The notes below the pieces were generated by a model. The model did no database searches, was not told where the DNA came from, and saw only the letters and a program-made list of their open reading frames with translations. Of a DNA stretch of 35,725 nt, positions 3,636 to 12,619 are shown piece by piece. The first letter of the stretch is position 1. Every line of letters starts with the position of its first letter. The stretch is from NCBI GenBank assembly GCA_021790455.1, contig JAJYDY010000006.1, forward strand, positions 1 through 35,725, written 5' to 3'. This DNA is from Microcaldota archaeon (lineage in GTDB: Archaea; Micrarchaeota; Micrarchaeia; Micrarchaeales; Micrarchaeaceae). Made by a program: the position numbers and the translations under genes.

Positions 3636-3723
3636 GGGGCCATCTGCTAGTCTGGTAGGCTTCGGGCATGGGGTGCCTGAGACCCGAGTTCAAAAGCAAT
3701 GGCTGAAAATCTCGGTGGCCCCA
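3636..3723 (+). tRNA. tRNA-Pro (anticodon GGG) with a 15-base intron in the T-loop
   Basis: The acceptor GGGGCCA pairs with TGGCCCC, discriminator A. The anticodon stem CGGGC/GCCTG encloses ATGGGGT, giving anticodon GGG. The T-stem CCGAG/CTCGG encloses 22 bases instead of seven. Removing 3695-3709 restores the standard T-loop TTCAAAT, so the intron sits at 59/60. The precursor folds into a bulge-helix-bulge. Exon UUCA (3689-3692) pairs with UGAA (3704-3707). A three-base bulge AAA lies on the 5' side and AAU on the 3' side, and a short GC/GC stem lies beyond. Cutting after the second base of each bulge gives exactly the predicted exons. Confidence 0.92.
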
Positions 3724-7445: not shown

Positions 7446-7456
7446 CTTATAAATAT
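7446..7456. promoter_or_regulatory. Bidirectional TATA element between the HerA-like gene and tRNA-Ser
   Basis: The sequence CTTATAAATAT reads as a TATA box on both strands. On the plus strand its centre is about 27 bases before the tRNA-Ser 5' end, so transcription would start at the mature end. On the minus strand it predicts a leader of roughly 20 bases ahead of the ATPase ATG at 7405, enough for its GGTGA site. Confidence 0.55.
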
Positions 7457-7477: not shown

Positions 7478-7620
7478 GCCAGGGTGGCAGAATCCGGTAA
7501 TGCGCCGGTCTTGAGTTTTCAAAACATCAAGAGCTGATTAGTGATGCAAAAAGAAAACCGGCGCCCCTCGGGGCTTTAGGGTTCAAAAGCAGAAACCTGC
7601 TGAAATTCCCTACCCTGGCG
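7478..7620 (+). tRNA. tRNA-Ser (anticodon UGA) with two introns
   Basis: The acceptor GCCAGGG pairs with CCCTGGC and the discriminator is G, as in archaeal tRNA-Ser. The anticodon stem CCGGT/ACCGG holds C-U-UGA-G, giving anticodon UGA. A 40-base intron at 7516-7555 follows G37, the canonical 37/38 site. The long variable arm is GCCCC/GGGGC. The T-stem TAGGG/CCCTA encloses 26 bases; removing 7588-7606 (19 bases) restores TTCAAAT, a second intron at 59/60. That precursor region forms a full bulge-helix-bulge: UUCA/UGAA core, AAA and AUU bulges, and a GCAG/CUGC inner stem. The anticodon-loop intron has a weaker core (CUU/AAG) and an internal CATCA/TGATG stem. Confidence 0.93.
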
Positions 7621-11464: not shown

Positions 11465-12619
11465 ATGGCACTTCTACTGGAGCTTGTTGACGGGAAGAGC
11501 GCGATAGCCTCAGACCAGTCTACGAAAGACATACTTGCGAAGGGCCACTTCGGCGAGATAAAAGGCAACATCCTATACCTGCAGCCAGAGGAGGTGCTCT
11601 ACCTGGTCGACGTGAGGAACGCAGAGCTGAAGAAAGATGGAAGGGCGCTGGACTTCAACGAAGCGGCAAGGGCCTTCGGGATAAAGGGGAAGATGCTGGC
11701 AAGGTACCTCACTTACAAGGACTGGAGGGACAGGGGGCTTGTCATAAAGGGGCCGGAGTTCCTGAAAAGGGAGAGCACGAAGACGCCGATAAAGAGGTAT
11801 CCCCCTGGAACCCTGAAGATGAAGCCCTACAAGCTCGAGGGTGTATTCTACCCTGAAGACCTTACAACGATAGTCAGCAGCAGAGAGGACGCCAGGGAAA
11901 TATACCTGCAGCACTGGTTCGGGCAGTATGGGACCTACAAGGTGAGCAACAGGGGGTCGCTGAACAAGCTCGACGTCTACGAGACAATATTCCTCCTCGA
12001 CAACGGGAACCTGAAGGTATCCAACTTCACGAGAGCAGAGATTTTCGCGCATGCAGCCAAGAGGAGGAAGGATTTCCCAAAGCTGTATGATGTCTACGCA
12101 GACTGGAGGAGCAAAGGGTACGTAGTAAAGACCGGATTCAAGTTCGGGACGCATTTCAGGATTTACTTCCCGGGCGCGAGGCCGGACAACAATGAGGAAT
12201 GGTCGCACTCGAAGCACGTAGTCCATGTATTCCCTAGGGACGTGAAGCTGCTGATATCAGAGTGGGCGAGGGCGATAAGGGTTGCGCATTCTGTCAGGAA
12301 GACGTTCATACTTGCAATCCCTGGAAAGAGCAGGGAGAAGAAGCTCGCGATCGACTTTATCCTCTACCACAGGAAGAAAGGCAACATCGAGGTTCCAGAG
12401 GAGGACGCGCCAAGGTTCGGCATGCTCTCCTTGAGCGAGGACGAATACATAGGGGGAGCAGAGCTGTCAGCGATAATAAGCCAGGCGAAGGCGCACAAGC
12501 TGGAACTCGTAATTGCGATAGCAGACAGGGAGACGGCTGTGACTTACTACAAGGTGAGAAGGATAGAGCTTCCAAGAAGCGACTACGAATACTACGAGAT
12601 AGACTGGATGCAGCCCTAG
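11465..12619 (+). CDS. endA: tRNA splicing endonuclease, three-unit ARMAN (epsilon-2) type
   Basis: EndA cuts bulge-helix-bulge RNA to release introns from tRNA and rRNA. The 384 residues fit an alphaN-alpha-betaC chain: an N-terminal EndA-like unit without catalytic residues (about 1-110), a catalytic unit, and a C-terminal beta-like unit (about 285-384). In the middle unit GYVVKTGFKFGTHFRIY carries Tyr219 and His230, and RVAHSVRKTF carries Lys279, the expected Tyr-His-Lys triad. The stretch between His and Lys is longer than in Archaeoglobus EndA. Single-chain dimers of this type were described from ARMAN and accept non-canonical sites, which matches the T-loop introns in this window. It starts eight bases after dphB. 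Confidence 0.9.
   Translation: MALLLELVDGKSAIASDQSTKDILAKGHFGEIKGNILYLQPEEVLYLVDVRNAELKKDGRALDFNEAARAFGIKGKMLARYLTYKDWRDRGLVIKGPEFLKRESTKTPIKRYPPGTLKMKPYKLEGVFYPEDLTTIVSSREDAREIYLQHWFGQYGTYKVSNRGSLNKLDVYETIFLLDNGNLKVSNFTRAEIFAHAAKRRKDFPKLYDVYADWRSKGYVVKTGFKFGTHFRIYFPGARPDNNEEWSHSKHVVHVFPRDVKLLISEWARAIRVAHSVRKTFILAIPGKSREKKLAIDFILYHRKKGNIEVPEEDAPRFGMLSLSEDEYIGGAELSAIISQAKAHKLELVIAIADRETAVTYYKVRRIELPRSDYEYYEIDWMQP

Follow-up and report, generated by a model that had tools for sequence, protein, structure and literature searches.

The tRNA-Ser(UGA) gene and its two introns

The window that has been analysed here is a stretch of 35,725 nucleotides from a Micrarchaeota assembly, which is 84% complete and comprises 782 kb. 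A tRNA-Ser(UGA) gene with two introns is located at positions 7478..7620 of the forward strand (the strand of all the window features given below), as identified from the sequence, from ARAGORN and from relatives; about 30 nt 5' of the gene, at 7447..7456, lies a presumably functional TATA-like element, TTATAAATAT. The anticodon UGA occupies 7512-7514, with nucleotide 34 at 7512. The first intron, 40 nt long, is located in the anticodon loop between tRNA positions 37 and 38 (7516..7555), where it is supported by ARAGORN and by a BHB motif and is conserved in the order; the second, 19 nt long, is located in the T-loop between positions 59 and 60 (7588..7606) and has a perfect BHB motif.

Standard tools overlook this gene because it has two introns: the raw sequence is detected neither by ARAGORN nor by Rfam, the latter finding no tRNA or snoRNA above threshold over the region. 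When nucleotides 7588-7606 are deleted, ARAGORN calls a tRNA-Ser(tga) that is interrupted by 40 nt after its position 38, which corresponds to tRNA position 37; with the T-loop intron thus removed beforehand, excision of the anticodon-loop intron leaves a standard tRNA, and excision of the T-loop intron restores the mature tRNA-Ser(UGA). An initial annotation of this locus had proposed a serine tRNA with introns of 40 nt after position 37 and of 19 nt after position 59, and both the intron positions and the serine identity agree with the ARAGORN call and the BHB motifs. It had also placed the T-loop intron at a site common with tRNA-Pro(GGG), and the tRNA-Pro(GGG) gene of the window (3636-3723), the raw sequence of which is likewise missed by ARAGORN and Rfam, does carry a 15-nt intron at 59/60. 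The gene is more than a chance resemblance, as a gene that is 97% identical, with both introns present, occurs in a sister genome, and the anticodon-loop intron is conserved in relatives; no uninterrupted tRNA-Ser(UGA) that could replace it has been found in the 84%-complete assembly. The double-intron interpretation is right about both introns and where they lie, about the serine identity and about the site common with tRNA-Pro(GGG), but it missed the conserved box C/D elements, and the guide to the tRNA's own anticodon, that lie within the anticodon-loop intron.

The T-loop intron and the splicing endonuclease

The T-loop intron forms an hBHBh' motif, with all four central pairs (UUCA/UGAA), two 3-nt bulges (AAA and AUU), a 4-bp inner helix (GCAG/CUGC) and a 5-bp outer helix. 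The enzyme that is expected, from its sequence, to remove both introns is encoded in the window at 11465..12619: an epsilon2 (three-unit) tRNA splicing endonuclease of the ARMAN-2 type, 384 aa long, with both domains recognised by Pfam and with PDB entries 4fz2/9w2k (ARMAN-2 epsilon2) as best matches (E 8.6e-161, residues 3-384).

Among 128 non-redundant tRNA-Ser(UGA/CGA) genes, the T-loop intron occurs in two, those of the window species and of its sister (L009, isolate YP3.bin74), the endonuclease of which is 91% identical to that of the window. To judge from these sequences, the T-loop intron belongs to the ordinary BHB introns and is a recent gain in the lineage of the window. It has been considered as the main novelty of the locus and set aside, given its presence in 2 of the 128 UGA/CGA genes and the interruption of the same site in many tRNA-Ser(GGA) genes and in tRNA-Pro(GGG). 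Eleven such tRNA-Ser(GGA) genes of relatives (L139-L143, L146, L147, L149, L152, L155 and L158) combine an intron at the T-loop site with a short anticodon intron that has no C/D boxes. Since tRNAs with two introns, and introns in the T-arm, have been described from ARMAN-1/2 and elsewhere, the double-intron reading alone would be ordinary.

Conserved box C/D elements in the anticodon-loop intron

A BLAST search with the gene has given matches in 60 of 60 relatives, the strong ones mostly spanning the anticodon-loop intron. When 48 genes are aligned, two blocks, (U)CxAGAGCUGA and UGAUG, stand out from an otherwise variable intron. As this alignment had been seeded by similarity, the collection was repeated with exon sequence alone as the anchor: the pattern CUGA-N(3-8)-RUGAUG is found in 126 of the 128 exon-anchored genes, a proportion that is not wholly free of bias, because most of the loci were originally fetched with intron-containing queries; this residual bias has been addressed by a check for intron-free UGA genes, given with the distribution below. 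The two exceptions are L209, which lies outside the order, and L269, a degenerate CGA gene. In the latter tRNA-Ser(CGA), which runs from position 120 onward on the reverse strand, neither box D nor box C is intact (AGTGA, TGATC).

In the window, box D (CUGA, invariant in alignment A1) is located at 7534..7537 and box C (GUGAUGC, with the core UGAUG) at 7541..7547. The spacing between the two boxes is 3 nt in 99 genes, 4 nt in 21 and 6-8 nt in six, which is the arrangement of a predicted K-loop. The seventh base of box C, an A in the consensus RUGAUGA, is never A in the 126 genes, being C in 118 and U in eight; it can always pair with the G that precedes box D (G-C in 118 genes, G-U in eight), as the last C of the window's box C can. 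This pair, which would extend the K-loop stem, accounts for the guide not beginning until the second base upstream of box D.

Two C/D pairs are the rule in archaeal sRNAs, and a half-guide on its own may be weak. Here, one D-C pair is recognised per intron and the duplex spans 6-9 bp, so that the intron departs from the canonical double-guide form of archaeal sRNAs (K-turn plus K-loop, 10-12 nt guide). In eukaryotes, C/D RNAs with a single pair are known (PMC7994747).

The motif is rare in the window's own genome: CTGA-N3-RTGATG has just three copies in 782 kb, the other two of which lie in unrelated sequence and are not C/D introns, and the six other tRNA introns of this genome that were inspected have no C/D motif. 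Two alternative structures have been examined and rejected: a 5-bp helix CAUCA/UGAUG, which can form in the window intron, is lost in relatives (e.g. UCUCAAGAG...GUGAUG), and a hairpin N-UCA/UGA-N' around the guide has mismatched flanking bases in many relatives.

The guide segment and its covariation with the anticodon

Directly upstream of box D, at 7527..7533, lies the candidate guide UCAAGAG, of which UCAAGA pairs with tRNA positions 36-31; its target strand (UCUUGA, positions 31-36) is located at 7509..7514, in columns 33-38 of alignment A1. Between the anticodon and the guide, at 7515..7526, a capping hairpin, GUUUUCAAAAC plus A, is included in the MFE fold of the window gene; its sequence varies, while its arms are still complementary in many relatives. 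The guide of the relatives, UCAAGAG or UCGAGAG, also adjoins box D, and it forms six pairs with positions 31-36 in 115 of the 126 genes and five pairs in the remaining 11. The duplex extends over 6-9 bp, where 10-12 would be usual.

The base chosen for 2'-O-methylation by a C/D guide is the one opposite the fifth nucleotide upstream of box D (PMC7994747). In the window, this D+5 base, A7529, faces U34; the register is fixed, with D+5 opposite nucleotide 34 in 126 of 126 genes, and the two bases match in 122. Nucleotide 34 is the one target base that differs between the UGA and CGA isoacceptors, and the guide changes along with it: the 126 genes comprise 87 with U34:A, 35 with C34:G, four with C34:A and none with U34:G. 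The four mismatches, located at the predicted methylation site, belong to tRNA-Ser(CGA) genes (L110, L281, L293 and L294) in which the guide still suits U34.

Fisher's exact test of this covariation gives 7e-11 in the 48-gene alignment, a value to be read with the caveat that related genes are not independent; none of 500 shuffles attains a covariation as strong, and when the helix is shifted by 1-3 columns, 28-51% of the cells are paired, versus 99% in register. On a gene tree from which the test columns were masked, at least 18 changes of nucleotide 34 are needed (shuffled minimum 27), so that a single inherited event is unlikely and many independent changes are likely, although this tree, built on ~130 columns, is weak. 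Some CGA introns are similar to the UGA intron found alongside them, as in G012 (L091 and L122), where both have the rare CUGACUA; this would be expected from gene conversion after which the match was restored.

Competition between the guide helix and the splicing motif

The intron strand of the BHB core at the anticodon site, AAAG (7550..7553), pairs with positions 35-32. In agreement with the initial annotation, which had pointed to a weak core at this site, three of the four central pairs are formed in the window (C32-G, U33-A and U34-A), with a mismatch between G35 and A. The core uses positions 32-35, which overlap with the target of the guide, so the two helices are mutually exclusive. 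The core also covaries with the anticodon, but less strictly than the guide does: C34 is matched by G in the BHB core in 19 of 39 genes and in the guide in 35 of 39. All four core pairs are present in 74 of the 126 genes, many others having a relaxed BHB. The weakness of the core is thus accounted for by the anticodon bases serving two helices, of which the relatives keep the guide more strictly.

In unconstrained folds of the precursor, the guide helix has a median pair probability of 0.89, versus 0.001 for the BHB core, and with shuffled introns the probability of the guide helix is near zero. Since proteins may shift the balance between the two folds, the order in which methylation precedes splicing is one that we infer.

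Distribution across the order

The C/D intron is found in tRNA-Ser(UGA), and often in tRNA-Ser(CGA), in 145 of 161 genomes that were sampled from the two families of one Micrarchaeota order. A covariance model gives strong matches (E < 1e-20) in 144 of them, about 126 of these matches having been read individually, and one of the 17 genomes that lack a strong match bears a C/D intron at the end of a contig. An intron-free tRNA-Ser(UGA) of the searched form has not been found in any of the remaining 16 genomes, many of which are incomplete, so that the absence of the C/D intron there reflects either loss or missing sequence. Outside the order, C/D boxes are absent from the tRNA-Ser genes that were inspected, and the introns of these genes, where there are any, are ordinary; the simplest reading of this distribution is one origin of the C/D intron at the base of the order. 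The genome also has genes for the proteins of the C/D pathway: Nop5, fibrillarin and two members of the L7Ae family.

Some CGA genes within the order are without the C/D intron. Eight tRNA-Ser(CGA) genes that lack it (L144, L145, L153, L212, L230, L231, L232 and L236) have a short insert within the 5' strand of the anticodon stem (e.g. CCAGA-AGCAATGGCGAAA-CTCGAGATCTGG), which looks like an intron at an unusual site, and several of these genes also have T-loop introns. Two intron-free tRNA-Ser(CGA)-like genes (L154, 62-147, and L226, 1501-1585, both on the forward strand) have the loop CCCGAAA, in which C33 replaces the near-universal U33. Lastly, an apparent tRNA-Arg(UCU) gene with a long anticodon intron (L166, G000:C22:13496-13614), which ARAGORN calls tRNA-Pyl, contains an intron segment, AAGAAG, that is complementary to its own anticodon; proper C/D boxes are absent from it.

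Proposed mechanism and alternative explanations

Taken with the invariant boxes, the fixed register and the covariation, we consider it probable that the anticodon-loop intron is an intramolecular box C/D guide, which would direct the 2'-O-methylation of nucleotide 34 ahead of the refolding and splicing of the precursor. In the precursor, the intron segment UCAAGA would pair with the tRNA's own positions 31-36, usually capped by a small hairpin or a tight loop; CUGA and RUGAUG, 3-8 nt apart, would fold as a K-loop and be bound by L7Ae; Nop5 and fibrillarin would then be positioned so that the wobble base 34, opposite D+5, is 2'-O-methylated. Afterwards, the precursor would refold, positions 32-35 pairing with the 3' end of the intron as the BHB, and the epsilon2 endonuclease would excise the anticodon-loop intron. 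We infer the binding of L7Ae, the methylation of nucleotide 34, its precedence over splicing and its action in cis. The points that speak against a guide are the single C/D pair, the non-A seventh base of box C, the short duplex, the four C:A mismatches and the CGA genes without the intron.

The closest alternative is that the excised intron is circularised, its one C box and one D box being joined by the K-loop, and guides the methylation of nucleotide 34 of other tRNA-Ser molecules in trans. Around such a circle, the elements would follow one another as box C - guide - box D, as they do in a minimal single-guide C/D RNA; archaea are known to have both tRNA introns and C/D RNAs in circular form, and a trans-acting role has been described for the tRNA-Trp intron (PMC7994747). 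Yet a short loop or hairpin already holds the guide in a duplex with the anticodon loop of its own molecule, which favours pairing in cis, and the guide suits the anticodon of its own gene in 122 of 126 genes, which would not be expected of one circle that serves all isoacceptors. We regard this alternative as unlikely. It is very unlikely, in our assessment, that the pairing of intron and anticodon and the K-loop serve folding or splicing only, for instance by offering the endonuclease a scaffold to which L7Ae is bound, with no methylation: the helix is stable and does involve the anticodon loop, and covariation by itself is no proof of methylation, but the guide helix competes with the very BHB that splicing requires, a scaffold has no need of the exact D+5 register on nucleotide 34, and other introns of the same genomes are spliced without such elements. 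The reading of the initial annotation, an ordinary double-intron archaeal tRNA with no further function, is hardly tenable, for although tRNA genes of ARMAN-1/2 and Thermoproteales are known to carry several introns, also non-canonical ones (PMC4033280), and the window encodes a matching epsilon2 endonuclease, it leaves unexplained both the invariant boxes and guide within an otherwise variable intron across the order and an anticodon covariation that is stronger for the guide than for the BHB.

If the intramolecular guide is real, Um34/Cm34 is predicted in the tRNA-Ser of Micrarchaeota, and the guide role would give a reason for the anticodon-loop intron being kept across the order while the T-loop intron is gained and lost; because anticodon and guide covary in nature, the mechanism can be tested directly. 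More tentatively, it is possible that precursor tRNAs throughout the order act as their own modification guide, with target, guide and K-loop in one pre-paired hairpin, and that the exclusive pairings of the anticodon put wobble methylation before splicing as a built-in quality-control switch; two competing folds would be a simple means of ordering modification and splicing.

Comparison with known systems

Methylation of nucleotide 34 in archaea has been reported for tRNAs that include Met, Trp, Gln and Leu (PMC7668247, PMC7994747); for tRNA-Ser, we have found no report of it in the open-access sources consulted (PMC7668247, PMC7994747), and an earlier mention elsewhere is possible.

With regard to its introns, the gene resembles the multi-intron tRNA genes of ARMAN-1/2 and Thermoproteales, which have BHB introns at canonical and non-canonical sites and an epsilon2 endonuclease, and for which we have found no guide function described (PMC4033280, PMC12397907). 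With regard to the predicted guide, it shares the boxes, the D+5 rule and the wobble target with the stand-alone archaeal C/D box sRNAs that act at nucleotide 34 of tRNA-Leu (CAA/UAA), tRNA-Met and tRNA-Trp in Pyrococcus (PMC7994747), but these act in trans, whereas the Ser intron is predicted to act in cis, and they have two C/D pairs. The Ser intron also differs from the minimal single-domain C/D snoRNA of Drosophila, which is eukaryotic and has an antisense element of 14 nt as well as a terminal K-turn stem (PMC7994747).

Among known cases, the euryarchaeal tRNA-Trp intron (Haloferax) comes closest. As in the tRNA-Trp(CCA) intron guide (sR50; Haloferax volcanii, Pyrococcus), an anticodon intron carries box C/D elements directed at the tRNA's own nucleotide 34, which is 2'-O-methylated there (PMC7994747, PMC4090602) and predicted to be so here; the tRNA-Trp intron targets C34 and U39, whereas the tRNA-Ser(UGA/CGA) intron has one predicted target. 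The Ser intron further differs in its single C/D pair, arranged as a K-loop, in the short loop or hairpin that joins guide and target, and in its occurrence in another archaeal clade. If the prediction is true, tRNA-Ser would join tRNA-Trp as a second tRNA family in which an intron encodes the modification guide, here in a simpler layout, with a single K-loop and an intramolecular guide.
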